DNA from: Bolinopsis microptera
Taxonomy: Eukaryota; Ctenophora; Tentaculata; Lobata; Bolinopsidae
Direction of reading: 5' to 3'
NCBI RefSeq assembly: GCF_026151205.1
Contig: NC_087074.1
Span: 5,332,001-5,396,000 of the forward strand
DNA: 64,000 nucleotides
The notes beneath the pieces were generated by a model. It did no database searches and had not been told where the DNA came from. It was given only the letters and a program-made list of their open reading frames with translations. Below, one piece after another: positions 35,890 through 56,900 of the stretch. A program made the translations under genes and the position numbers. Each line of letters opens with the position of its first letter. Position 1 is the first letter of the stretch.

Positions 35890-36895
35890 ATGGTAGTCAG
35901 GTGTGGCTGCCCTATACCAACATTCTCAGCAACATCTGTCAGAAGAAAACACAGTCCGACATAGACACACTCACACAATTAGCAAATGACAGCATCGAGC
36001 GCCTGCATCTCTCGGTGCTAAAATGGACGACCGGGGTCAACAAGAGAACTTCAAATATCCCGATATGGGGAGACACAGGACGATATCCCCTTGGAATACA
36101 GCTGAGTTAGCTCTTTCTTGATTTCCACAACAGGCTAGTCCTCCTTGACAGAAAAAACTCACCACAGATTGTTCGCCATGCATTCGTAGAGCAAAGAAAC
36201 CTAGAGCTGACCTGGTTCCGAACATCGAGAGCGCTGAGTGCTGACCGACGCATTTGACCCAGGAGCAATTAAGCGCACAATTGTCTCGAAGAATGTTCCT
36301 ATGCCGAACAGCCAACTCGTTCAGAGTAGACTAAGGGATTGGTTTCAACAAAAGTGGGAAAAAGCTCGAATTGAAAACAAAAAGCTTGCATTATACAACG
36401 AAATCAAAAGCAGCTTTAAATTAGAACCGTACTTATCTCTACCCAATCACAAGAAAACCCGATGTACCACATGGCTGAGGACAAGCTCCCACAAACTTAA
36501 TATCGAGACGGGGCGATATGGCTGGAAAATTCAAGCATCTTCTACAGAGCTTGCACCTTCTGCTGCACCTCAGGCAGAATCACCTTAGACCTCCTGAACA
36601 AGCTCCCTTTAACTTTGAGTGACATCATTAAAGAAGACGAAGTCCATTTGCTTAAATAATGTCCAGTCTACAAGGAGATCAGACAAAGAAACAGCACAGA
36701 ACTTCACAACATGCTCACAAATAGTCAATTCAATAAATTATTTAATGAGAATTACATTCTTGAGACTAGAAATTTTGTTTATAATTTATTTCGTGAAAGA
36801 TTTCCTAAAAGTAAGCTAGGTGACTTAATATCCATATTCCGTGCACACTTTGAAACCATTTCTTTATTTATGATATTATGTTTTTTGTTTGGTTG
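35890..36895 (+). pseudogene. Decayed LINE D: C-terminal part of a reverse-transcriptase polyprotein
   Basis: A broken remnant spread over three frames. Frame segments: 35895-36110 (VWLPYTNILS... IERLHLSVLKWTTGVNKRTSN... WGDTGRYPL); about 36238-36588 (LRDWFQQKWEKARIE... NHKKTRCTTWLRTSSHKLNIETGRYG); then DEVHLLK, a stop, and CPVYKEIRQRN continuing to FRERFPKSKLGDLI (36640-36893). The order LKWTLGV, TSNxAxWGDTGRYPL, HKLxIETGRY, EDExHFLxxCPxYxxxR is the usual C-terminal tail of one class of invertebrate LINE RT proteins. At least two frameshifts and several stops make it non-functional. The 5' part (endonuclease, RT core) is missing. The 3' end runs straight into the (TAATTTC)n array. Confidence 0.8.
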
Positions 36896-36945
36896 AATAA
36901 TTGTCATTTAATTGATTTGGATCTGACACATGTAATTTTGTAATG

Positions 36946-37262
36946 ATCTTTTTAATTTCTGATTTCTAATTTCTAAAATATCTAATTTCTAATATCTAAT
37001 TTCTAATTTCTAATTTCTAATTTCTAATTTCTAATTTCTAATTTCTAATTTCTAATTTCTAATTTCTAATTTCTAATTTCTAATTTCTAATTTCTAATTT
37101 CTAATTTCTAAAATTTCTAATTTCTAATTTCTAATTTCTAATTTCTAATTTCTAATTTCTAATTTCTAATTTCTAATTTCTAATTTCTAATTTCTAATTT
37201 CTAATTTCTAATTTCTAATTTCTAATTTCTAATTTCTAATTTCTAAAATTTGTAATTTGTAA
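36946..37262. repeat. (TAATTTC)n microsatellite, about 43 units
   Basis: A near-perfect 7-bp tandem array with a few AAAT or ATAT interruptions. It begins about 50 bp after the LINE D coding remnant and probably grew from that element's 3' tail. Confidence 0.95.
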
Positions 37263-37698
37263 TTTTTAATTTCATATGGCCGTGTTATATTAAATTGTTG
37301 CAACTCTGCTCAGAATTGGATTTGTGACCCAGTTGAGAAATAGAAGTATATTTCAGCTAAAGTATGGGCTCAGGGCTTATACTTTGCGTATTACGGTTTA
37401 TGAATTTGATGATTTGTGACAATTGCATGTGTTCCAAATGGACTACTAAATGTGTTTTGTAATAACGTTCCTTTTACGTAAAGCGCCTAAATTGACAAAA
37501 TCACGAAATCTCAGTACCTCTACTTGTTTTTCCAACTATAACAGTTTAGGTTACTTGAGAAGTTTCAATAACAAATGGTTCAATCAAGACGTTTATCAGT
37601 TCAATGTATTGCAATTACAGTTACTACTCGCCAATTAAAGCAGCGTATCGTTTAATAGTAAACTGTCTGTAGTGAGCTGTGTGTTGTGAGTGTTGACT
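37263..37698. other. Non-coding spacer between arrays
   Basis: No gene seen; the short open frame here has no supporting motif. Confidence 0.5.
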
Positions 37699-39443
<1,745 letters not shown>

Positions 39444-42685: not shown

Positions 42686-45600
42686 CGTAATATAATAAAT
42701 AATAAATAAATTCTAACATTTATTACACGCTTCGACATTAAAATATACCCAACAAAGATGTACATTAAAGTCATTCAAGCGAGACTTAGTGTTGAAATAG
42801 CAAGATTATGGACTTTTTAAACAGTTCAGATTTTATGAACAAATATTTGTATGAAGTTACCAAAATTATGCACTTTCATATCAGTTCAGACATTATGGAC
42901 AAATATTAGAAATATTATCAAAAGCTAGTTGGAAATAAAACGTCTTTAGGGCATTTTTAAAACATTCTACAGATGATAATGATCTCACTGAGTAGGGTAG
43001 TTCATTCCAAATTTTTGGTCCACAAAACATAAATGCAGCATCTGTTCGTCTGAAATGAGGAGCAGGAGGAACTTTCAACAAATAAAAGTCATCATCTAGT
43101 CTGGAACTTTGTCTTCGTACTTCCCTTAGATTGATGTGTCCTTGTAAGTACTGAGGGGCTATGTTATTTAGACACTTGAAGACCAGAAGTGATATTTTGA
43201 ACTTAATTCTGAACCGAACAGGCAGAAAGTGGAGCTTTTTGAGGTAAGGCATGATAGGTTCACGTATCTTTTTTCCGTAAAGACCAAAGATAAATCTAGC
43301 AGCATTGTTCTGTATCTTTTGTAGCTTATGAAGATTCTTTTCTGTTACTCCATAATAGACTGAGTTGCAGTAGTCTATGAAACAGAGGATATTGGAGTGA
43401 ACTAGCTGAACTTTTAGGTCATGGGAAAGCTTCGAACCGATTCTTGCTAAGTCCCTTTGATTCAAATAACATACTTTGGAGACAGCATTTATTTGAGAGT
43501 CCAGATTCATTTGGTGATCGAAAAGGAATCCCAGGTTCTTGGCCTTGCTAACAGGGCAGATTGAGAGGTCTCCTAAATCCATTGTCTGGATTGGGCTGAC
43601 ATATGGTCCTATATCAATGAACTCTGTTTTTTCATCATTCAGTTTTAGGAAGTTAACTGTCATCCATTGCTTTATCTCCAGAAAGCAATTTTTCACAGCT
43701 GTTAAATCAGGATTAGAACTGTGAACATCAAAAGTAAAGTACACCTGTGTGTCATCTGCATACAAATGTATCGAGAAACCATATTTTGTGACAATTTCTT
43801 CAAGATCTCTGGTATACAATATGAACAGTAGTGGTCCTAAAATGGATCCTTGAGGTACACCAATATCCAGATAGCCTTCAGAAGATGTGGCTTTTTTTAC
43901 TTTAACCTTGAATGTGCGATTATTAAGGTAACATTGTAACCAGCTGAGTGCTAGTTCTGTAATACCATACGCATTCTTGAGTTTCGTAAGAAGGAGGTTA
44001 TGGTTTATGGTGTCGAAAGCAGCTGATAGATCTAAGAGTAGAAGCACAACATTCGATTTGCTGTCAATCATCATTAGAATATCATTATGTATTTTGGTAA
44101 CTGCAGTTTCACAACTATGGAATTTTCTATAGCCTGATTGATATGGGGAAAACAGGTTGTTGACATCAGCATATTCATTTAATTGGCAATGAACTACTTT
44201 TTCTAGTATTTTGGACAGATAAGTTAGATTGCTAATCGGTCGATAGTTTTTCAGCTCATCAACATCTAAGGTAGGTTTCTTGAGTCCAGGCCTAATAGAT
44301 GCTTCTTTTAGGGCAGATGGAAACTTTCCGACTCTTAGTGATTCATTCACGATGTAATGGATGATTGGGAGAAGCTCGGGTAAGCAGTTCTTGAAGAGCC
44401 ACATTGGTATGACATCGAGTACGCTTGATTTATTGGGAAGACTCTTAATTAAGGTTTCAAGGTCTGATAATGAGACTTCCTTAAACTGATTAAGTCTACA
44501 CTTTGCATTATCTATCGAAGTAGAGTCCTTGGTACCTTGACCGTTTAGGGAAGTGTTTTGAATTTCCTTCTCAATATTAGAGTAAATGGTCTTTACTTTT
44601 TGATCGAAGAAAGTCTTGAGTTTGGCAGCCACTTCGATATCTTCACCATTTGGCAATTTGTTGGAGCCATATTCCTTATCTAAAAGTTTATTTATGACTT
44701 TATAGGTCCCTTTCGAGTCTCCTTTGCAAGAACTGAGCTGTTTATCATAGTAGCCATCCCTAGCTCGATTGATAGTGATTTCTGCGTCAACACATTTTTC
44801 AAAATGAGTAGTTTTAAACTCATCATTCTCTGGATACTTTTTGGCTTTTCGTTTTGCCCTTCTCCTCTCTCTGACAGCAATTTGACATTTATTATCCCAA
44901 AAATCAGACTTTTCAGCAGTAAATCGTTTCGTAATAAGTGGGGCATGTTTGTCTAGCACCTGTTCAAGGACATTTTGATAAAGGTTCACAGTCTCGTCTA
45001 AGGATTGATATTCAGAAAGGTTAAGCTCTGAACAAAACAGATCTTCCCTGAACTTATCGATGTCAATTTTGCTTAGCTCTCTGACATCTTTTTCTTCATA
45101 TGTACGAGCTTTATGAAGATCGAATGTGACTGGGACCTGAAAACTTACTAGATAGTGATCAGAGCTGGTTCCAGTGCTTGTCTCTACCATCATATCTGTT
45201 ACAGACAATGAGTCACTTACACAGCCTAGAGTAAATAACAAGTCCAGTGTCCCGCCGGAGATGTGAGTAGGAGAGTCGACATGCTGAAGGAAGCCTTTGC
45301 TCTCACAAAGAGCAATAAAGTTCTGGGCAACATTATTGTTCAGGTCTTCAACATGGAAATTAAAGTCACCACAAATAATTGGAGATCCAGTTTTAAGCAG
45401 AAGATTGTCCAGGTATCCATCAAAGTCATCCATAAACTTAGATATTTTTGTTTCATCATATTTCGCTTTGGCCTGAGTGCTGCGATAAACTACACATAGC
45501 CTGATAATCTCACCAGCAGTTTTAATGACACATTCAAGTACTTCAAAAGATGAATATTCAGTAACATCATTGCGTACAGGCGATATCATTTTGGGGTTGA

Positions 45601-45865
45601 AGAGAAAACCAACACCACCTCCCCTACCTCTTCGAGGGGCACTGATAATATCGAACCCAAAATCACGGATTTCGGCAAACTTTGCCCGATCATTAGTTTT
45701 TAGCCAAGTTTCCGTGATACAACAGATAGAAATCGAGTTATCTTTAAGCATTTCTAGTACGCCACAAGTTTTGTTGCATAGAGACCTTGCGTTGAAACAA
45801 CCAATAGAAAGCTGTGATTTCTGTCGATTAGCACCTAATTTCACATTACGTTTTTTGAAATAAAA
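42686..45865 (-). mobile_element. Non-LTR retrotransposon B, 5'-truncated, intact EN-RT frame
   Basis: The element reads on the minus strand. Its 3' end is a TTTATTTATTATTTATTA-type tail at about 42686-42717; its 5' edge abuts the (TTTA)n tail of element A at 45855-45893. Only the endonuclease-reverse transcriptase frame is present and no ORF1, so it was probably truncated on insertion. A 59-bp imperfect direct repeat (42803-42849 and 42862-42908) spans the stop codon and 3' UTR. The frame is open for almost 3 kb, which argues for recent insertion. Confidence 0.85.
42893..45844 (-). CDS. LINE B endonuclease-reverse transcriptase
   Basis: 983 residues. The N-terminal APE-type endonuclease nicks target DNA: SIGCFNARSL (Asn), CCITETWL (catalytic Glu), ICGDFNFHVE (Asp/Asn) and SSDHYLVSF (Asp-His). 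The reverse transcriptase (~470-760) shows YRPISNLTYLSKILEKVV, SGYRKFHSCETAV, block A LLDLSAAFDTINHNLL, block B GVPQGSILGPLLF, block C LYADDTQVYF and the thumb KNLGFLFDHQMN. A C-terminal domain with PKIWNELPYSVR follows. All catalytic residues are visible and there is no stop or frameshift. The frame stays open upstream into the flanking T-rich repeat and the first codon is GTG, so the natural start is missing; this copy is probably not self-sufficient. CR1/L2/Rex-like in style; clade not certain. Confidence 0.92.
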   Translation of the reverse strand: MKLGANRQKSQLSIGCFNARSLCNKTCGVLEMLKDNSISICCITETWLKTNDRAKFAEIRDFGFDIISAPRRGRGGGVGFLFNPKMISPVRNDVTEYSSFEVLECVIKTAGEIIRLCVVYRSTQAKAKYDETKISKFMDDFDGYLDNLLLKTGSPIICGDFNFHVEDLNNNVAQNFIALCESKGFLQHVDSPTHISGGTLDLLFTLGCVSDSLSVTDMMVETSTGTSSDHYLVSFQVPVTFDLHKARTYEEKDVRELSKIDIDKFREDLFCSELNLSEYQSLDETVNLYQNVLEQVLDKHAPLITKRFTAEKSDFWDNKCQIAVRERRRAKRKAKKYPENDEFKTTHFEKCVDAEITINRARDGYYDKQLSSCKGDSKGTYKVINKLLDKEYGSNKLPNGEDIEVAAKLKTFFDQKVKTIYSNIEKEIQNTSLNGQGTKDSTSIDNAKCRLNQFKEVSLSDLETLIKSLPNKSSVLDVIPMWLFKNCLPELLPIIHYIVNESLRVGKFPSALKEASIRPGLKKPTLDVDELKNYRPISNLTYLSKILEKVVHCQLNEYADVNNLFSPYQSGYRKFHSCETAVTKIHNDILMMIDSKSNVVLLLLDLSAAFDTINHNLLLTKLKNAYGITELALSWLQCYLNNRTFKVKVKKATSSEGYLDIGVPQGSILGPLLFILYTRDLEEIVTKYGFSIHLYADDTQVYFTFDVHSSNPDLTAVKNCFLEIKQWMTVNFLKLNDEKTEFIDIGPYVSPIQTMDLGDLSICPVSKAKNLGFLFDHQMNLDSQINAVSKVCYLNQRDLARIGSKLSHDLKVQLVHSNILCFIDYCNSVYYGVTEKNLHKLQKIQNNAARFIFGLYGKKIREPIMPYLKKLHFLPVRFRIKFKISLLVFKCLNNIAPQYLQGHINLREVRRQSSRLDDDFYLLKVPPAPHFRRTDAAFMFCGPKIWNELPYSVRSLSSVECFKNALKTFYFQLAFDNISNICP

Positions 45866-45893
45866 AATAAATAAAATAAATAAATAAATAAAG
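45855..45893. repeat. (TAAA)n microsatellite at the A/B junction
   Basis: Plus-strand AAATAAATAAATAAA, that is (TTTA)n on the sense strand of both LINEs. It is best read as the 3' tail of element A, into or beside which B inserted. Confidence 0.8.
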
Positions 45894-46483
45894 TCAATTT
45901 TTACAGCACAGCAATATATATCTAAATATCAGATCCTCTGTAATCATAATGTATAAAAAAAGGAGCTTTTCTCTGTGCTGAAGGATGAATCAAGGCAGAT
46001 CATGGTTCTGTTAGCAGGCCACCCTAGTTATGGACAATACATATATATAAAATAATTAAATTATAATTTTAAAATTGTGTCAAGATTGAACTAAAACATA
46101 ACTCAGGGTAAAATAGACGTATTCCCTTCGTCAAATTAACTATTTACAATACTAAACTTAAACGAACTCCGGGTAAAATAAACGTAATCCCTTTGTCAAA
46201 CTTGCTATTTACAATAAGTTAATAAATTAATACGGTTGAAAATTATTTCATATTCAATAACAATGTAGCATCAATATAATTGATACAAATGAGGAGCATA
46301 CAGTGAGAATTGCACATAACAGGAGGACTGGAGGTATGGAGCAATAATGATTGACAGTGCACCTTTCCACTGATGTTCCTAATTTCCTGTAATAGCTTAA
46401 TAGGCATGGAAATACTTTGATTGCAGGGGATAGATTGGATTCACTTATGTACTGAGATAACTTATCCGAAATAACATAACTGC

Positions 46484-49414
46484 CTAGATACATTGGCTAG
46501 TGTTGGGTGGGATCATGAATTTATCGTAAGAGTTATCCCCTTGGTAATTCTCATCAGTTAGCAACATATTCATAAGAGTTTCTTTGTATAACTTAGAAAA
46601 TTTCTTAACGTCGTCACACTCTCTAAGGGACTTTGGTAATATGTTCCAGGCCTTAGTTCCTAGATAGTTAAACTCCTTGTGAGATCTTGATTTAGGAGTA
46701 TAAAGATTGCAGTTTTCTGCCTCACGTGATCCACCAGAAATATACGAGAATTTCCCGATAAAATGCTTTGGACATGTTTCATTGATTATACGGTACATAT
46801 ATGAGCTAAGATGAACCTGTCGTCTCAAATGGAGAGGAAGCCATCCCATATTTTTGTATACATTAACCGACCTCTCTCTGATGTTTACATCTAGGGCTAT
46901 TTTAGCAACCTTTTTGTACATGATATCTAACTCTCCTAGTCGTTTTTTATATGTTCTTGACCAGATGGTGTCTAAGTAGTCAAAATGTGGCAACATAAGT
47001 GCATTAGCAAACATCTTCCTGAACTTAAGAGGGAGAAGTTTTTTTGATCTATACATAGCACCAATTCTTTTGGATATCTTTTTCTTAATGTTATCAATAT
47101 GTTCATTAAATGTCAATCTGCTGTCAACTATAAGTCCAAGGTACTTATGGGATTTAGTTTCACAGATTACCAAAGTAAGGTCATCACAAATTTCAACAAG
47201 GATAGCATCAAGGTTAGGCTTAGAGTCAAGGATCATTAGTTTTGTTTTTTCATTATTCAGGGATAGTTTATTAGCCTGAAGCCATCTGATAACTAATTTC
47301 AACTCTTGTTTGATGTTACCATAGTTTCCTCTAGATATATTGTCAAAATATAATGCACCGTCATCAGCAAATAGATAAGGTTTAGAAAATAGGCATGCAT
47401 TAGGCAGGTCATTGATAAAAATGCTGAATAGAATTGGTCCTAATATACTTCCTTGAGGCACTCCAGAGTTCAATGAATGTAAATTGCTTATCCTACTCCC
47501 AACTCTAGTTTGCTGTAATCTATCTGTGAGGAAGCTCCTAAACCAGCTCAATGCAGTATCTTTTATTCCATAATGCTTCAGCTTTTGAATGAGAATATCA
47601 TGGTTAACAGTATCAAATGCCTTTCTGATGTCCAGGAAGATAATTGCAGGATGCTTGGCACTGTTCTTAGCAGTAAATATACGATCAAACAGATCTAACA
47701 TGAGATAAGTTGTAGAGTGATCTTTACGGAAACCATATTGATGCTCTGAAAGTATTCCCTTTTCATCAAGATATTGAGTCAGTTGGGAGTTCACACAAAA
47801 TTCGATGCACTTTCCAAGAATCGGTAAAATTGAGATTGGTCGATAATTACTAGGATTCTCAGTATCACCATCCTTATGGATTGGGGTGACTTTTGCAACC
47901 TTGCAGCTGTTTGGCATGATGCCACTGGATAAACTCAAATTTACAAGATGTGTTAATGGAGCAATAAATGCAGGTAAAATTTGTCTAAACACTCTCAATG
48001 GTATATGATCATTAGTGGATTTGCTACAAGGGATACTTGCCACATAGTCTAAGATATTGGACTCAGTTATTTCAGTAAAGCTATTCAAGCTGGTCTCGTT
48101 GTCAATCTGCTCATTTTGTAGATAAGATAGAAATTCATTTTCATTTTCCAGCTGCACTTCTGCTTGGATCTTTGGACCTATTTCAGCAAAATATTTATTG
48201 GTGGTTTCAGCATCAAGATTGTTATTGATATTGTTAGCTTTAACAGGCAGATTTGATGCTGTCTTTATCGTTTTCCATACACCCTTTAGATCATTCATGG
48301 CACACTTGGCTTTCAGTTCTGTTGCTAAGTTAGTCTTCCTATTAATTCTAGACAAATAGGTTGAATAGTTTCTCTGCCGTTTATATGCCATCCATAATGA
48401 GTCACATTTATTACAGTGTATAAGACCATTTGGATGTATACGTCTGTTCTTGTTGTGTGTTAAAAATTTACGGTAAAGTTTCCCTTTCAATTTCTTACTT
48501 TCTAAAAATTCTGGAGATGGCTTATGGATGTAATCACTATGGCACTTAATTTGTTTAATTGGACAGAAGTGATCATAGTAGTGATCAATATGTTCGTTTA
48601 AACCATCAACTGCATCATTCAGACTAGTTGAATCTATTATTGGTCTATAATCACAGGTTTCCAAAAATTCTTTAAGAGCAGTAACATTCATTTTGCTGTG
48701 ATCTCTTATTAGTAACTTCTTGAATTTTGAGGCCTTATGCACATTGAAATCGACAATGAACTTTACGACCTGATGATCTCCTATACAATCATCAAGGACT
48801 TTGCAGTCAAGAAACTTGGAGTAAGTGTTTGTTATGACAACATCGATTGTGGTCTTTGTGATTCTGTTTCCTAGTTTAGCAATGCGGGTAATATCCTGAA
48901 CTACCTGTACCATTCCAAACATTTTCATTGTAATGTCTAATTTCTTATAGTTCATACTGCTGATGTTGTTTTGGTCTACATTTACATCACCCAGCCAAAT
49001 AACATTCTTACTTCCTATACTCATCATGCAGTCTGTCATATAATCTAAAAATTTGTCAAGAGGACTAAACAACTCAGATCTGTAGAAACAGCAGATGAAA
49101 ATATTGCAATCTGTAAGATGGATCCAAATAGCCTCGATTTGGTCATATTGCAAAACTAAGTTTAGTTGAATCATTTTAAACTTTATGTGCTCACTGATGA
49201 GAATGCCACATCCCCCATGACCATTGTCGTTATGACGGTCTTTGCGGATAAAAGTAAAATTCTTGGGTAGGTTTAGACTGGCTGAGTCAATATCCGACTT
49301 AAGATTTGTTTCATTCAGGCATAAAACATCTAATTTCTCTTTCCAGATTAGATCTTGGATTTCAAGACATTTTGGCATACCTGTTAGTCCTCCCTGCATG
49401 TTGCAATGTCCCAC
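46484..49414 (-). CDS. LINE A ORF2: endonuclease-reverse transcriptase
   Basis: About 976 residues. The APE-type endonuclease starts at GHCNMQGGL (Asn) and continues LCLNETNLKSD (catalytic Glu), WLGDVNVDQN and GDHQVVKF (Asp-His). The reverse transcriptase shows YRPISILPILGKCIE, YGFRKDHSTTYLML, block A FLDIRKAFDTVNHDIL, block B GVPQGSILGPILF, block C LFADDGALYF and the thumb YLGLIVDSRLTFNEH. The C-terminal domain has NYLGTKAWNILPKSLRE. Catalytic residues are all present. The first listed codon is GTG; the frame is open further upstream to a TAA near 49503 with no in-frame ATG before the conserved endonuclease start, so initiation is unexplained. It nicks DNA and reverse-transcribes element RNA. 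Confidence 0.93.
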   Translation of the reverse strand: MGHCNMQGGLTGMPKCLEIQDLIWKEKLDVLCLNETNLKSDIDSASLNLPKNFTFIRKDRHNDNGHGGCGILISEHIKFKMIQLNLVLQYDQIEAIWIHLTDCNIFICCFYRSELFSPLDKFLDYMTDCMMSIGSKNVIWLGDVNVDQNNISSMNYKKLDITMKMFGMVQVVQDITRIAKLGNRITKTTIDVVITNTYSKFLDCKVLDDCIGDHQVVKFIVDFNVHKASKFKKLLIRDHSKMNVTALKEFLETCDYRPIIDSTSLNDAVDGLNEHIDHYYDHFCPIKQIKCHSDYIHKPSPEFLESKKLKGKLYRKFLTHNKNRRIHPNGLIHCNKCDSLWMAYKRQRNYSTYLSRINRKTNLATELKAKCAMNDLKGVWKTIKTASNLPVKANNINNNLDAETTNKYFAEIGPKIQAEVQLENENEFLSYLQNEQIDNETSLNSFTEITESNILDYVASIPCSKSTNDHIPLRVFRQILPAFIAPLTHLVNLSLSSGIMPNSCKVAKVTPIHKDGDTENPSNYRPISILPILGKCIEFCVNSQLTQYLDEKGILSEHQYGFRKDHSTTYLMLDLFDRIFTAKNSAKHPAIIFLDIRKAFDTVNHDILIQKLKHYGIKDTALSWFRSFLTDRLQQTRVGSRISNLHSLNSGVPQGSILGPILFSIFINDLPNACLFSKPYLFADDGALYFDNISRGNYGNIKQELKLVIRWLQANKLSLNNEKTKLMILDSKPNLDAILVEICDDLTLVICETKSHKYLGLIVDSRLTFNEHIDNIKKKISKRIGAMYRSKKLLPLKFRKMFANALMLPHFDYLDTIWSRTYKKRLGELDIMYKKVAKIALDVNIRERSVNVYKNMGWLPLHLRRQVHLSSYMYRIINETCPKHFIGKFSYISGGSREAENCNLYTPKSRSHKEFNYLGTKAWNILPKSLRECDDVKKFSKLYKETLMNMLLTDENYQGDNSYDKFMIPPNTSQCI

Positions 49415-49675
49415 TGCAAGCTTTTTGGCATGGTATGAAACTGTGATTTTACTAATGCACGGGTTAATGCAAGAACTGCTGTGAGAGCATGAAAATTTTT
49501 ATAATTTATGCTGCTATAAACTTGTCAGAATAAGATAAATTGCAGAACTGGCAAATTTGTATGAGATAATAACAAAACTTTCTAAAACTTCAATAAACAT
49601 GAGGAACAATGTGTAATTATCCCTTATCATATCTAGAATCTAGATGAAATAAATGTTAACAATCTTTCTGAAAAT

Positions 49676-51049
49676 TCAAACTTGCTTATGGGCCCAATAC
49701 TTCAGAAATTTAGCAAGTCGAATAACACCGCTTGTATTGAGGTGACAGTTATCAGATATTTTTGCAGATGGTCTGGCAAAATAAAATTCTTTCCTGAATC
49801 CACTTCTATTATAGTTAAATAAATTATGGGTGCTAATGTAATTAAAACAAGAATCTTTGCTACACATATCCTTAATAACCTTATTCAGCTCTGCCACAAC
49901 ATCATTGCGGCCTTTTGTACTCCTGGGAAGAATATTGAGAACATTAATTGTTGCATTCGGATACACTGACTTGAGATAATTTAAGAGATTACTAATGTCA
50001 CCCGCTGCATCCTTCAGTGACTTTGAGCCAAAATAGACTGTGTTCACATTATTAGTTCCTGTCATAATATAAATAATAGATGGGGATGGAACGGAGTGTA
50101 GGTCAGTTTTTAGTTTATTTAACATTACTTTGGCATCAGCCCCAGGATAAAACAGTTTACTAGCACTAACAGTGGACGATGATAACTTGTCCGCATCAAG
50201 AAACCTGAACATAGAGCTGCTTATGAATAGGACAGACTTTTGTGAAGCTTTGGCTGGCTGTTTGCAAACTGAGAGTGCAGGTGAAGAAGAGTCTGTCAGT
50301 TTGTGTCCTGAATGAGGGATGGATGGGGGCGGTGAACGCAGACCAAACTCAGTTGACTGAGTGATCCTAGGGGGCTTCATCAGTCTTAGGGTGATGCTGA
50401 TCCGGGGTTCATCACACATTTCGTCTGGCAGTATCTCATGTTGAAAGTCAGCCTGAGACAATTTGGACATGATGAAGACATCTCCATGCTGAAGTTGCAC
50501 AGAGCCCACAACTTCATTGCTGCCGTTTGATCTAATTTGCAGTGTTCTCGTCGCACCAAGTGAAATGGTTACAATATCAGAGTGTTCTACAATACATGAT
50601 TCAGAATCGCTATGAGCTGGCATGAACTCTGCTCCAGTTTCATATAGATTGACGAGAATACTATTGTGTCTGAAATTGGGTAATATCACATTAATGTAGG
50701 AGCTGAGTTTAGCAAGGTAGGAATCATTGTGTACACTTTTTGGGTCATGTGTTGCACCTGAATACTCATAGGGAAAGTCACCAAAATAAACCGATTTCCT
50801 GTTTTTAAAACCGTGACTGAACTCAAGTTCTTCCATTAATAGATCAAGTGAAAATTTAGAGAATGGACCATCATCTAGTAGGGTAACTGGTTTCACTGGT
50901 GATGGGGAACAAGTTACAGATATATTCATTGGCCCCGGTGTTATAGGATCGTAGACAGGGGCAGGGACCAAGTTTGGATATTTGTCTCTGGGCTTAGGGG
51001 TGTTGATCCGTGATTCACCAGTAGCAGTAGATACAGGGAGATCAGACAC
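49676..51049 (-). CDS. LINE A second frame: AlkB-like dioxygenase + SGNH esterase-like protein
   Basis: 457 residues. Residues ~60-225 fit the AlkB family of Fe(II)/2-oxoglutarate dioxygenases, which oxidatively remove alkyl groups from nucleic acid bases: N134-x-Y136, iron-binding H146-x-D148 and H204, and R216-x5-R222 for 2-oxoglutarate, with SLGATRTL and LQHGDVFIM strands between. Residues ~271-455 fit an SGNH/GDSL hydrolase: FISSSMF (Ser block), PGAD (Gly), TGTNN (Asn block) and D433-x2-H436. A Pro-rich N-terminus joins ORF1, with which it overlaps in the -1 frame. The first codon is GTG, the frame opens after a TGA only a few codons upstream, and the first ATG is M41. It may be made by frameshift from ORF1, or a one-base indel may have split a longer ORF1. 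Host function is unlikely. Confidence 0.88.
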   Translation of the reverse strand: MSDLPVSTATGESRINTPKPRDKYPNLVPAPVYDPITPGPMNISVTCSPSPVKPVTLLDDGPFSKFSLDLLMEELEFSHGFKNRKSVYFGDFPYEYSGATHDPKSVHNDSYLAKLSSYINVILPNFRHNSILVNLYETGAEFMPAHSDSESCIVEHSDIVTISLGATRTLQIRSNGSNEVVGSVQLQHGDVFIMSKLSQADFQHEILPDEMCDEPRISITLRLMKPPRITQSTEFGLRSPPPSIPHSGHKLTDSSSPALSVCKQPAKASQKSVLFISSSMFRFLDADKLSSSTVSASKLFYPGADAKVMLNKLKTDLHSVPSPSIIYIMTGTNNVNTVYFGSKSLKDAAGDISNLLNYLKSVYPNATINVLNILPRSTKGRNDVVAELNKVIKDMCSKDSCFNYISTHNLFNYNRSGFRKEFYFARPSAKISDNCHLNTSGVIRLAKFLKYWAHKQV

Positions 51050-52593
51050 ATAAAGTCAGTGTTAGCAGCAATACGTTTAGTTTCTCTTACCAACACAGGA
51101 CAATCGTAAGCTGCCGCATTATGTGTTCTTGAATTCTCGGCATCATTAGTGTGTGTTGAAGCCAAACATCGAGCACAGGCATGTTTGTCCTTCTTCTGCT
51201 TAAATTGGCATGCTGAAGACCGGTGACTTCCCATACAGTACATGCAGGTAGGATGTTTATTTGTTTTGACTTCATTACAGTCAACAGAAGTGTGTCCAAT
51301 CATTTGACAATGATAACACTGTTTGATGTAGAAGCGATCAGTTACTTTGTATCTGCGACTACCTAAATAGAGAGATCCTTGTTGTTGGTTAAAGAGGACT
51401 CTATAGACAGATGGTGATAGTTTGATTCCAATAGTGAGCTCTATGCGTTCCTGCTTATCGTTGGTGAAACGTTTTATCTTATTGAGATAGACAATACTGA
51501 TAGTGTGCCCTGCTTCATACAAATCTTTGATGGACGAGTTTTTCTTCACAATTTGGGCGACTAAGTGGTTCTTTTCAAGATCCCTAAGTTTATCGGCATC
51601 ATTCCCTACAGCTGTAGTGTCTATATCGTCAAGAACTTCAGAAGAAACACCATAAATAGTAACTTTTGGCAGCATTTTGTTGCCATTCTTAGACTGATAT
51701 CCATACGAATCTAAGGTATTTCCATCATTGAGAAGTGAAGTAGCCTTATCACGAATTTCAGCATTAGGGAAGCCAATTGAAACTTTCTTATTGTTTTCAT
51801 TACATCTGAGAAATACTACTTGACTGCTCTTTAATTTATCAGTAGCAAATTTTTTCACATTTGTCATTGTTGCAGCATTTACCGATTGTTCTTCTTTCGG
51901 GGACAGAATTAGAATCTCGGGTGATGAAGGTTGTGTACGTGTTGGAGCGATTGGAACATGTGGTGGTTGAGCAGATGGTGTGGAACTGTTTGAGTCGGTA
52001 AACAAGCTGGAATAGAGAACGTCCTTTGTATGAGAAACAGTACCAGATTTTGTTACAACAGTGTTTACTTTATTGTCAATAACATCATTGATATTTTTCG
52101 TGAGGTCTTCTTTTAAAGATGAAAACTGTTCAGCAAATTGTTTCATAAAATCAACCTGATCTGAGGATCGCTCTTGAGCTCTCTCAGGTTTCTGGGACAG
52201 TTGTTCCTTCAGCAAGGTTTTAAGTTCAGACATCTCTTCCCTGAACTCCAAATTTATGGCATCTATTTTATTATCTAACAATCCTACCCGATCTACGGTA
52301 GTAGCAGCCCTCTTTTCCTCCTCAGCAGTACTACAATCATTACAGATAAATAGAAAGCGACCAAATCGTTTAGCATAAGATGAAGTGTTGTTCACAGCAT
52401 GAGACAGGTGAGCAGTAAAAACCGTGGGCGCACTGACATTGCAAGTTTCATCACAGTTGATAGCATGAAAACTGTCCTTACACCAAAAACACTGTACAAT
52501 GTCGGTACTTTTGACAACCTCATCATTCGAACAAGCTTTACATAAACCGTTGACGAGAAGATTCTTTGCAGAGTTATGAGCAGACTTTTCCAT
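50941..52593 (-). CDS. LINE A ORF1: gag-like nucleic-acid-binding protein
   Basis: 550 residues from the ATG at 52593 (MEKSAHNSAKN); the frame is open 16 codons further but has no earlier ATG. N-terminal PHD-like zinc finger: Cys pairs CKAC, CFWC and CNDC with His and Cys in FHAINC, which fits C4HC3 apart from H-x3-C. A coiled-coil segment follows (DNKIDAINLEFREEMSELK), for multimerisation, then a ~150-residue middle region that may be an RRM-like RNA-binding fold, then zinc knuckles: CYHCQMIGHTSVDC (canonical CX2CX4HX4C), CMYCMGSHRSSAC, and a third Cys/His cluster (CARC...). The last ~35 residues (MCLISLYLLLL...) look like an out-of-frame reading of the next protein, so the true product may continue by -1 frameshift. 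Expected role: packaging element RNA into a ribonucleoprotein. Confidence 0.88.
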   Translation of the reverse strand: MEKSAHNSAKNLLVNGLCKACSNDEVVKSTDIVQCFWCKDSFHAINCDETCNVSAPTVFTAHLSHAVNNTSSYAKRFGRFLFICNDCSTAEEEKRAATTVDRVGLLDNKIDAINLEFREEMSELKTLLKEQLSQKPERAQERSSDQVDFMKQFAEQFSSLKEDLTKNINDVIDNKVNTVVTKSGTVSHTKDVLYSSLFTDSNSSTPSAQPPHVPIAPTRTQPSSPEILILSPKEEQSVNAATMTNVKKFATDKLKSSQVVFLRCNENNKKVSIGFPNAEIRDKATSLLNDGNTLDSYGYQSKNGNKMLPKVTIYGVSSEVLDDIDTTAVGNDADKLRDLEKNHLVAQIVKKNSSIKDLYEAGHTISIVYLNKIKRFTNDKQERIELTIGIKLSPSVYRVLFNQQQGSLYLGSRRYKVTDRFYIKQCYHCQMIGHTSVDCNEVKTNKHPTCMYCMGSHRSSACQFKQKKDKHACARCLASTHTNDAENSRTHNAAAYDCPVLVRETKRIAANTDFMCLISLYLLLLVNHGSTPLSPETNIQTWSLPLSTIL

Positions 52594-53920: not shown

Positions 53921-56900
53921 GTACTCTTAGGAAGGGATATACCTGAGCGAGTGCCAATAGAAGTTCGACTTGACTGCAAGAACGCTAAACTAGTCAAGAT
54001 TGACTGCGGAGGAGAGATGTTTATCACAACTGAACAATCTTTGTCTCGATATCCCAATACCTTGTTAGGAGACCCTGACGTAAGACTCTAGTTTCTAACC
54101 TGGATTCAACTGTTGCTTTGACCCAGATCCTAAAATGAATATCCAAAACTTACTTAACTTTTTCTTTAATCTTTATTTTTTATCAAATAATTCACGACAA
54201 GTTAATTATATTATTATACATCTCAAATTTCAGAGACGAGCTGCTTTTTATGATGCAAAGACAAGCATGTACTACTTTGACAGAAATCAGGATCTGTTTA
54301 ATGCAATCCTCTACTTTTATCAGTCACCCGGAACCTTCCGGTAAACTAACATTATTTTTTTACTCTTTTTACATATTAACCTGTACTACTTTCACATATT
54401 AACCTGTGTCATTGTCTCTCAAGTTACGATGAATATTGAGAATCCACAGTGGCAACAATCAACTATTCTAGAATGCTTCCAAGTGCCAACTTGAGGTTGT
54501 AGTTGAGATATAACAAAAATTATATATAACAAATTATATATATATAATTTGTTATATATTTTGTTGTATATAACAAAAATACAATAGTCCCCCAGAGATG
54601 ATGGATCCTGTAGTTGTTGAAGAAGAATTAGATTTCTTTGGTATAGATCTGGACCTCATGATAAAAGAATACGACAGAATTTATTTAGAACTTCACCCCG
54701 AACTTCCTCCAACTCTAAAAGAGACTATAAACAAAACGGTAGGACTCAGCTATGAATAGATGAATATCTACTTTTTAGTTTTTTACTGTAAATTTAAGAA
54801 GAATATCTAAATTATATTTAAATTCATGTGATTGGATAGAAATCCCGTGTTGAGCTCTAAAATCAGATTCCGTCGGACTATCTGTAATTCAGCAATAAAT
54901 CAGGCTTATGAAATGACAAACTGATTAATGTATTCAAAATGATAAATATATCCTAGATGAATGTATCCAAAACGCAGGAAATTTCACTTATATTACTATA
55001 TCCCGCAGATTACAGATCCGAGCTATAACAAAGCTGGAATGGTATGGGGCTTCATGGATCTGGCGTGCATCATAATGACCATATCCTTGTTGGTTATAGA
55101 GACAATCCCAGCGTTCCATGATCACTTTAAGAAACCCTTTGCTAAAGATGAGATAACGGGACAGATCCAGCCGTACAAGATGGCCACCTACATGTTGGAT
55201 GTGGTTATCAACTTGTTCTTCACGGTTGATCTTATCATTAAGTTAGTTAGAGTTTACTTCTCCACAGTCGACCCAATTTAGTCAAGTTATTTAATGTTTA
55301 GTTTGCATTATCGCACACTTGCATACATTATTTACTTTTGTAGGATATTTAGTCAAGTTATTTAATGTTTTGTTTGCATTATCGCACACTTGCATACATT
55401 ATTTACTTTTGTAGGATATTTCTGATCATACCTTTGCCCTATAAAGTCATAAACCACAAAATCTCGTCGCCAAGGTTTTTATCCTCGAAGAACAGGAAGA
55501 GGTTCTTCTTGAACACAGTCAATGTAATGGATATCCTGGCAGTATCCCCGTTCTACCTCGAGCTCCTCGTCTTCATCGCTACTGGAGGGGAACCTTCTCC
55601 GCATTTTTTTGCGCTCAAGGTGATTATTAATATTTTATACGTAATCATTGTAATCATTGTAATCATTGTAATCATTGTAATCATTGTAATCATTGTAATA
55701 ATTGTAATCATTGTAAAATGTAATCAATGTGATCTTTGTAAACATCAAGACACAAGATACTAAGATACCAAGTGTTCATTCTAACCCTCTTTTTGTCAGG
55801 TGTGTAGGATAGTTAGAGTCGTCCGAGTATTGAAGCTGGTTAGACACAGTAGACAGTTGACGGAAGTACTTGAGGTATATAGCAAAATTTAGAATTTGTT
55901 CGCTAATTTTTTGTTACGTTGATTCTGAAAAAATGCAAAGACACTGAAAAATGCAAAGCCATAAGGTTTAGAATCAAGTCACTTTTAGATCTTGTAGTTT
56001 AGACCTAAATAAAGCTGGTTTCATATTGATATCTAACCAATTTATCGGCATAAAGGTAATTGATTTTTAGCTTAACCCATTAGGGACGACGAGTTTTAAA
56101 GTTTGCCGATTTTGATGCCGTTTAACACACTAGGTCACTTTACAGCAAAAATGAGATATCCAAAAAAGCTAATCTGTATCTCGTTTACTTTAAAAGATAC
56201 AGCTATGGTCGCATACGACCCACTCGTCCGGGTCGCAAACGACTCATCACTGTTTTTCGGCTTTAACTTCTGAAACAAAGACGTTAGGATAGAATAAAAA
56301 CTGTAGCATAAGTTAAAAATATAAGGTCAATACTGTGTGACTCTAACTTTTAAAAAATAGAGAATTCGGGTCATTAACGACCCACTCGGCTCACTTGCTT
56401 ATCACTACATATGTCCATGTAACTTCTTGAATTCAGCCTAAAACATGACATCATAAGTGCAAACTTGCCTCTCAGCAAGTGATTATCATAATAAACTGCG
56501 AAAAATCGGTTAAATGGGTCATTAGCGACCCACTAGGATCACAAAATTGATTAATTAAATATAATGTTGTCAAACTTTTATAAATATTAGTATAAAAACA
56601 TGTTATATCTTGGTCATTACTCCTGTACGTTGATTTAACTTCTTAAATCGATCAACTGGGTCAATAACGACACACTCGGAAGTTGAACCACGTCATTAAT
56701 TATCAGTATCATGCCGTTCCACCATCAAGAAAGACACTCGTAGGTCTTAACTCCACGCAAACCACGGGTGGATGACCACTAGCCCTCATGAGATCTGGAG
56801 TCTCAAGGTGATCTGCAGATCACGTCACCCAATCACTGACGAATAATGAGCAGAATTGGATTGATAGGTAGGTGAGTTTATCAGCTGTTAGTACACGACC

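Follow-up and report, generated by a model that had tools for sequence, protein, structure and literature searches.

Nested LINEs in the window

The stretch of Bolinopsis microptera DNA that was analysed (64,000 nucleotides of contig NC_087074.1, hereafter the window) contains two LINEs on the reverse strand (-), one of which, LINE A, is inserted in the other, LINE B. The features of this region, in window positions, are as follows:

42893..45844 (-), LINE B ORF2 with endonuclease and reverse transcriptase (RVT_1 2.1e-33, Exo_endo_phos 3e-8)
45868..51051 (-), LINE A copy, 5'-truncated and inserted in LINE B (99.69% identical over 5184 columns to positions 4037-9214 of L037)
45868..45892 (-), 3' tail of LINE A, approximate, of short (TTTA)n-like repeats (L037 and L038 end in a tail of this type)
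46484..49498 (-), LINE A ORF2 with endonuclease and reverse transcriptase (Pfam, PDB)
49676..51051 (-), 3' part of LINE A ORF1, approximately 457 of 624 residues
49676..51055 (-), open frame of 459 residues with an AlkB domain followed by an SGNH domain
49679..50242 (-), SGNH esterase domain, residues 272-459 of the frame (PF13472 E 4.9e-5, below the cut-off; profile against PDB)
50384..50770 (-), AlkB (2OG-FeII_Oxy_2) domain, residues 96-224 of the frame (PF13532 E 2.2e-18; ALKBH3 in PDB 5.5e-15)
51052..52593 (-), first part of LINE B ORF1, with PHD-like Cys/His and CCHC-like motifs seen by eye; not part of LINE A

When the two flanks of the LINE A insertion were joined, they formed one element, LINE B, and the insertion site was uninterrupted in all five of the other LINE B copies that were read (L040-L044). 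The flanks overlap by 3-4 bases at the insertion site, which is consistent with a short target-site duplication. LINE A has the hallmarks of a LINE, namely an ORF2 with endonuclease and reverse transcriptase (RT), a 5' truncation and a 3' tail of short repeats. Its ORF2 was matched by RVT_1 (7.9e-37) and, under the Pfam cut-off of that family, by Exo_endo_phos (1.3e-4), and it matched LINE-1 ORF2p at 2.9e-13. The truncation has removed from the window copy the start codon and approximately 167 N-terminal residues that the ORF1 of full-length LINE A copies contains.

It had been proposed from the letters of the window that the AlkB domain is encoded by a second frame of LINE A, behind a PHD-like first frame of the same element. 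This part of the sequence-only reading did not stand: the upstream frame (52593..50941) belongs to LINE B as far as position 51052 and is uninterrupted in the five LINE B copies, none of the other genome matches to this 550-residue frame extended past residue 530, and ORF1 is one single frame in full-length LINE A copies. The overlap of the frames and the change of frame near 51050 are therefore due to the insertion junction, and a -1 frameshift from a PHD/CCHC-like ORF1a into the AlkB frame was ruled out. Since LINE A is inserted in LINE B and its full-length copies have a single-frame ORF1, the ORF1 of LINE A is without a PHD or CCHC part. In the upstream frame, zf-CCHC was matched in Pfam only at 0.038.

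Full-length copies and LINE families

A search of one genome (264,652,675 bases in 232 contigs) with the AlkB-SGNH frame as the query gave at least 102 matches. The domain pair was without a stop codon in 22 further copies that were 99-100% identical to the window copy, and in 19 of these (L002-L020) the open frame has 630-632 residues. The many near-identical, stop-free copies suggest that LINE A may have been active recently. Two full-length copies, L037 (5907 bp) and L038 (5908 bp), are 99.85% identical to each other and are composed of an ORF1 of 624 residues from the first ATG, which is a single uninterrupted frame, an ORF2 with endonuclease and RT, and the (TTTA)n-like tail. The order within ORF1 is an N-terminal part with CxxC and a heptad-like stretch (both seen by eye), a variable linker, the AlkB domain, a second variable linker and the SGNH domain.

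The same AlkB-SGNH order was found in the ORF1 of at least five LINE families (F1-F5). Both domains were present in one frame in each of the 15 ORF1 frames read (2, 3, 3, 4 and 3 per family), which were taken from 18 loci (L021-L038) after three truncated or interrupted ones (L026, L027 and L033) were left out; even L033 has both domains, in a frame of 396 residues. Neither an RRM nor a CCHC domain was found by Pfam in the AlkB-SGNH ORF1s. A scan of the genome for PF14529 covered 150 of 1695 candidates, and the known endonucleases of the LINE A type were not among the matches listed.

The relationships of the families differ between the two ORFs. For F4 and F5, the ORF2 proteins are 97% identical with a dS of 0.07, and the dS of ORF1 is saturated or near saturation. 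When L031 and L034 were compared at the DNA level, the identity was 0.85-0.90 immediately upstream of ORF1, fell to 0.46-0.81 between the beginning of ORF1 and approximately 5,970, and was 0.96-1.00 thereafter, with the step at oriented position ~5,970 of L031, near the start of ORF2. It seems from this pattern that ORF1 has been exchanged between LINE families, and such an apparent exchange fits the modular evolution of ORF1 that has been described (PMC4120745).

Identity of the AlkB domain

The AlkB domain was recognized from the single window sequence, in which PF13532 matched residues 96-224 with an E value of 2.2e-18 and 67.6 bits, the curated cut-off being 31.2 bits. The top PDB matches of the single sequence were ALKBH3 (5.5e-15), followed by ALKBH2 (1.2e-6) and E. 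coli AlkB (0.0019). PF13532 also matched all six rows of the family alignment, which represent the five families, and the profile made from the five families matched ALKBH3 at 1.3e-20, ALKBH2 at 2e-17 and ALKBH5 at 0.0097. This overall similarity suggests the ALKBH2/3 side, rather than the ALKBH5/9-like side, as the probable place of the LINE domain. Two single-sequence AlphaFold models, one for the complete frame and one for the AlkB domain, were of low confidence (mean pLDDT of 34 and 47), and when the low-confidence model of the AlkB domain was used for Foldseek, none of the 304 matches had an E value of 0.001 or lower and no AlkB was among the best 50 of the 304.

The AlkB ligands and the SGNH blocks named in the sequence-only reading are all present in the window frame, at an offset of two, as residues had been counted there from the GTG at 51049 and the numbering used here is higher by 2. 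The AlkB residues are N136, Y138, H148, D150, H206, R218 and R224. In the alignment of the five LINE families, R86, Y96, Y98, Y138, H148, D150, E152, H206, R218 and R224 are invariant, and the H-x-D-x-E motif, the distal H and R-x5-R are invariant in all 16 AlkB domains that were aligned, i.e., those of the five LINE families, eight other repeat-like frames and three probable host genes. Within LINE A, each of the 15 catalytic residues checked was present in each of the 20 copies read, the window copy included. Other copies of the family that lack the domain or have randomised ligands would have spoken against the sequence-only reading, and neither is the case. At the N-x-Y motif, the Tyr is invariant, and the Asn found in families 1-3 is Thr in families 4 and 5, in which the position of ALKBH3 Leu177 is Met. 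The Asn-to-Thr change weakens the description of a full ligand set for the group, not for LINE A.

Residues Y143, E195 and R131 of ALKBH3 have been discussed as substrate-side residues (PMC10816986, PMC3985658). In structure-profile alignments, positions of the LINE AlkB match all three. The LINE domain keeps the tyrosines of the YxY motif, the Arg of NRL and an acid two residues beyond the metal-binding Asp. However, the YxY motif and a nearby acid or its equivalent have been described also for ALKBH5 and FTO (PMC3985658). These residues therefore do not fix the substrate, and the reading of m1A and m3C as substrates rests on the overall similarity.

The AlkB domain could mainly supply nucleic-acid binding to an esterase-type ORF1 protein, with catalysis being secondary, for several reasons: the esterase ORF1 proteins in RepBase have been described as being without an RRM or another structural RNA-binding domain (PMC3905857), the AlkB domain lies between the N-terminal region and the esterase, and the replacement of Asn by Thr in families 4 and 5 lends this view slight support. 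However, the metal ligands and R-x5-R are invariant among domains that are as little as 35% identical (35-84% between families), which binding alone would not require. We consider a mere binding role quite unlikely, and a catalytic role as a demethylase is the reading followed below.

SGNH domain

The SGNH domain was less readily recognized from the single sequence, with GDSL/SGNH scores in Pfam of 24.3 and 21.7 bits, under the curated cut-offs of 32.9 and 23.6; the E values were 4.9e-5 over residues 324-442 and 2.4e-4 over residues 312-449. PF13472 was matched by five of the six family rows at an E value of 0.01 or lower, and the five-family profile of this domain matched structures of the PAF-acetylhydrolase type in PDB (2hsj, 4.5e-6; 1fxw, 6.9e-4) and, at 0.041, the ORF1 esterase of zebrafish ZfL2-1 (4c1b). 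The residues S279-281, G305, N335 (of GTN 333-335) and D435-x2-H438 are invariant in the five families. With the five-family profile, the assignment as a putative SGNH esterase is sound, and the proposal made from the window that a LINE carries an AlkB domain fused to an SGNH domain is borne out by both the PF13532 match (2.2e-18) and the SGNH profile match (4.5e-6).

Selection on ORF1

When ORF1 was divided into the N-terminus, AlkB, linker and SGNH, the lowest dN was that of AlkB in all six comparisons. Between F4 and F5, AlkB had a dN of 0.106 and a dS of 1.20 (ratio 0.09; 0.11 for a second pair of copies), while the dN was 0.235 for SGNH and 0.588 for the N-terminus, with the dS saturated in both. 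Between F2 and F3, the dN was 0.224 for AlkB (dS 2.0), 0.267 for the N-terminus and 0.428 for SGNH. The dN/dS of AlkB was 0.09-0.11 for families 4 versus 5 and 2 versus 3, and the dS was near saturation in most of the family comparisons. By these estimates, the constraint within ORF1 is strongest on AlkB, with a dN/dS of about 0.1. AlkB is not slower than the RT: the dN of AlkB and of the RT was 0.70 and 0.38, respectively, for F1 versus F4, and 0.37 and 0.34 for F1 versus F2. Among 19 LINE A copies, from which L018 was left out due to its different length, the AlkB-SGNH piece had 19 replacement and 19 silent variants (pN/pS 0.29), distributed in small counts as 3 replacement and 9 silent in residues 60-230, 8 and 8 in residues 272-459, and 8 and 2 in the rest.

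The expectation that selection would be seen on the ligands across copies thus agrees with a dN/dS of about 0.1 and with the invariance of the HxD...H...R residues in five families, and purifying selection on the AlkB ligands, across copies and families, is supported by these comparisons. The window copy is itself truncated, as might be expected if a host AlkB gene had been picked up once and had been drifting since as a dead passenger. Five families, many stop-free copies, the low dN/dS and the invariant ligands make such a passenger extremely improbable. A lone captured pseudogene was ruled out on the stop-free copies, the five families and the dN/dS.

AlkB in Helitrons and other frames

In the whole genome, PF13532 gave 151 matches from 587 candidates, 150 of them listed. 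Besides F1-F5, AlkB domains recur in frames of approximately 593, 676, 707, 749 and 777-884 residues and in giant frames of 2225-3388 residues. One probable host gene (L046) matched ALKBH3 at 7.3e-39, and the LINE AlkB domains are 23-29% identical to those of three probable host genes. The domains of the 777/843 frames are only 21-31% identical to the other aligned AlkB domains. In a tree, in which long branches were flagged and the root is arbitrary, the LINE domains together with six other repeat-like ones were separated from the three host-like domains and the 843/777 group (95/96).

Six of the giant AlkB frames also hold Helitron_like_N, as judged from the shared contig and strand and the identical length of the frame:

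Helitron frames with AlkB, 2225-3388 residues long: C10:16875843 (+), C12:8338315 (-), C3:14441692 (-), C9:15868177 (+), C12:2469580 (+), C9:11092850 (-)

By the presence of Helitron_like_N in the same predicted frame, these six are Helitrons. A part of one giant frame (L056) had no match in Pfam or PDB; its repeats suggested a Helitron, which the search for Helitron_like_N confirmed. A short AlkB match at C10:4302388-4302702 (+), in a frame of 142 residues, is followed 3.9-4.1 kb downstream by two Helitron_like_N fragments and is thus probably a decayed Helitron and not a host gene.

The co-location of domains was analysed with 150 of the 151 AlkB matches, all 41 Helitron rows and 25 of the 150 SGNH rows, which were picked by eye. 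Helitron_like_N was located 3.6-4.3 kb downstream of AlkB in eight AlkB loci in all, and matches to the SGNH profile were located 1.25-1.8 kb upstream of AlkB in at least eight loci. In three of the latter, which are Helitron frames (2459, 3321 and 3226 residues), SGNH and AlkB are in the same frame; of the other five, one is a fourth Helitron with SGNH behind a stop codon, one has a Helitron Rep 4.3 kb downstream, and three have no listed Rep. For the Helitron AlkB frames of 3388 and 3366 residues, no SGNH was among the matches listed. In the 676-like group, SGNH was instead found approximately 540 bp downstream of AlkB and in the same frame in at least four loci, comprising two of the five frames of 676 residues and two shorter frames. 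As far as the predicted domains show, the AlkB/SGNH pair is therefore present in both orders and in two unrelated classes of elements, LINEs and Helitrons. Many SGNH frames were also found with recurring lengths of 478-485 and 502-526 residues, which may be esterase ORF1s without AlkB. No relatives were found in viral and prokaryote contigs with the few peptide patterns used.

Proposed function of the AlkB domain

In the mechanism that we propose, the N-terminal CxxC/coiled-coil-like region would probably serve for multimerisation, and the ORF1 protein would accompany the RNA and the cDNA of the element. The AlkB domain would strip methyl groups from the Watson-Crick face (m1A and m3C), whether these are chemical damage or made by an enzyme, which would otherwise stop the RT or stay as lesions in the single-stranded intermediates. 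Like the sequence-only reading, we infer that the AlkB domain may protect RNA or cDNA; the simplest form of this is that the element would supply an AlkB of its own so that its RNA template and single-stranded cDNA can still be read. The R2 RT, for which relevant results are available, is itself from a LINE. It has been reported that RTs in common use are impeded by m1A and m3C and that, for the R2 RT, treatment with AlkB raises the capture of tRNA fragments bearing m1A (PMC12140624). ALKBH2 has been described to act on m1A and m3C in double-stranded DNA, and ALKBH3 in single-stranded DNA (PMC3985658). The esterase would handle lipid binding or membrane contact, as has been proposed for ZfL2-1 (PMC3905857). 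We give an even chance to this explanation, in which an ALKBH2/3-like demethylase would clear m1A and m3C from the single-stranded nucleic acid of the element.

Helitrons move through single-stranded DNA, and the occurrence of AlkB in Helitrons as well thus fits a job on single-stranded intermediates and not on one step of reverse transcription. The AlkB and SGNH domains might then constitute a portable cassette that takes care of single-stranded intermediates, arranged as AlkB-SGNH in the LINE ORF1 and as SGNH-AlkB-...-Rep in Helitrons; we regard this broader reading as plausible but somewhat less likely than not to be correct. If it is true, transposition would in general be hindered by methylated bases in single-stranded intermediates, and elements would meet this barrier with demethylases of their own. 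The recurrence of the pair in Helitrons also suggests that transposition in this host may be limited by methyl groups on nucleic acid, whether as damage or as marks.

The AlkB domain might instead serve counter-defence by erasing a mark with which the host silences or sequesters the element, either m6A in the RNA of the element or a base modification in the DNA of the insertion. Host-mark removal is a serious rival by analogy, since the AlkB protein of an orchid Ty3/Gypsy element has been reported to be an m6A demethylase in vitro, for which a role of this kind has been proposed by the authors (PMC9289625). Host-mark removal would also agree with the YxY motif and the acid, which are common to ALKBH5 and FTO (PMC3985658). 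However, the orchid protein is ALKBH5/ALKBH9-like, and the LINE profile was best matched by ALKBH3 and ALKBH2, with ALKBH5 at only 0.0097. On balance, we consider counter-defence unlikely, if worth serious attention. Another alternative is that the protein acts on host molecules, by demethylation of host RNA or by repair of the host's DNA at the site where the element integrates. The ALKBH2/3-like similarity fits DNA repair too, but the element would gain more from acting in cis, which is an argument and not a result, and we consider an action on host molecules very unlikely. The clearing of methyl groups from the element's own intermediates remains our preferred reading.

Relation to known elements

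The nearest known elements differ from LINE A in what is joined to what. The esterase ORF1 proteins of the ZfL2-1 type, in CR1/L2/RTEX LINEs, likewise have an N-terminal coiled-coil-like part, a linker and a C-terminal SGNH domain (PMC3905857, PMC4120745), and in the LINE A type an AlkB domain stands between the N-terminal part and the esterase. Such esterase ORF1 proteins were described in 2013 as "unique among ORF1ps in harboring an enzymatic function" (PMC3905857), and Table 1 of PMC4120745, a study that analysed 448 elements, contains no AlkB. The Ty3/Gypsy elements of Phalaenopsis orchids are likewise retroelements with a captured AlkB, whose enzyme is active in vitro (PMC9289625). In those LTR elements, however, AlkB is a separate ORF2 and an ALKBH5/9-like m6A eraser, whereas the AlkB described here is ALKBH2/3-like by overall similarity, is fused to SGNH, and is found in a LINE ORF1 and in Helitrons. 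In plant RNA viruses, as cited in PMC9289625, AlkB is likewise carried by a replicating RNA element and repair of RNA has been proposed; these are RNA viruses of plants, and the parallel is drawn from their description. ALKBH3 and ALKBH2 have HxDxE, the distal H, R-x5-R and YxY in common with the LINE AlkB, which differs in belonging to the ORF1 of a transposon. The GDSL esterase that forms ORF3 in LTR elements of bdelloids indicates that esterases have been captured by retroelements more than once; these bdelloid elements are without AlkB as far as the main text of PMC5408684 goes, in which the term is absent.

It is thus already known that AlkB occurs in mobile elements, in the sense of the orchid Ty3/Gypsy elements and plant RNA viruses, and that esterases occur in LINE ORF1, the orchid element being the nearest case. 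In agreement with the sequence-only reading, no earlier description of a LINE or a Helitron with AlkB, or of AlkB fused to SGNH, was found in the literature searched, with preprints, Repbase reports and most subscription journals lying outside it. In PMC11294593 and PMC12768352, "AlkB" refers to the host gene alkB2 and to a laboratory reagent. What ORF1 proteins do in LINEs is poorly understood, and the LINE A type adds to the esterase a second enzyme that is well understood and simple to assay in vitro, so that the question of how an ORF1 protein acts on RNA or cDNA becomes directly testable.

Other features of the window

A third LINE has its RT frame at 104-1612 (RVT_1 5.1e-36), and this RT is approximately 31% identical to those of LINE A and LINE B. 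The region 36000-38250 has a strong GC skew of -0.33 and long overlapping frames on both strands at 37635-38246, and is perhaps a simple or tandem repeat. The frame at 54961-55281 resembles, by eye, an exon of a membrane channel and had no Pfam match, and the frame at 55353-55763 ends in a long run of Ile and Val that is probably a microsatellite.
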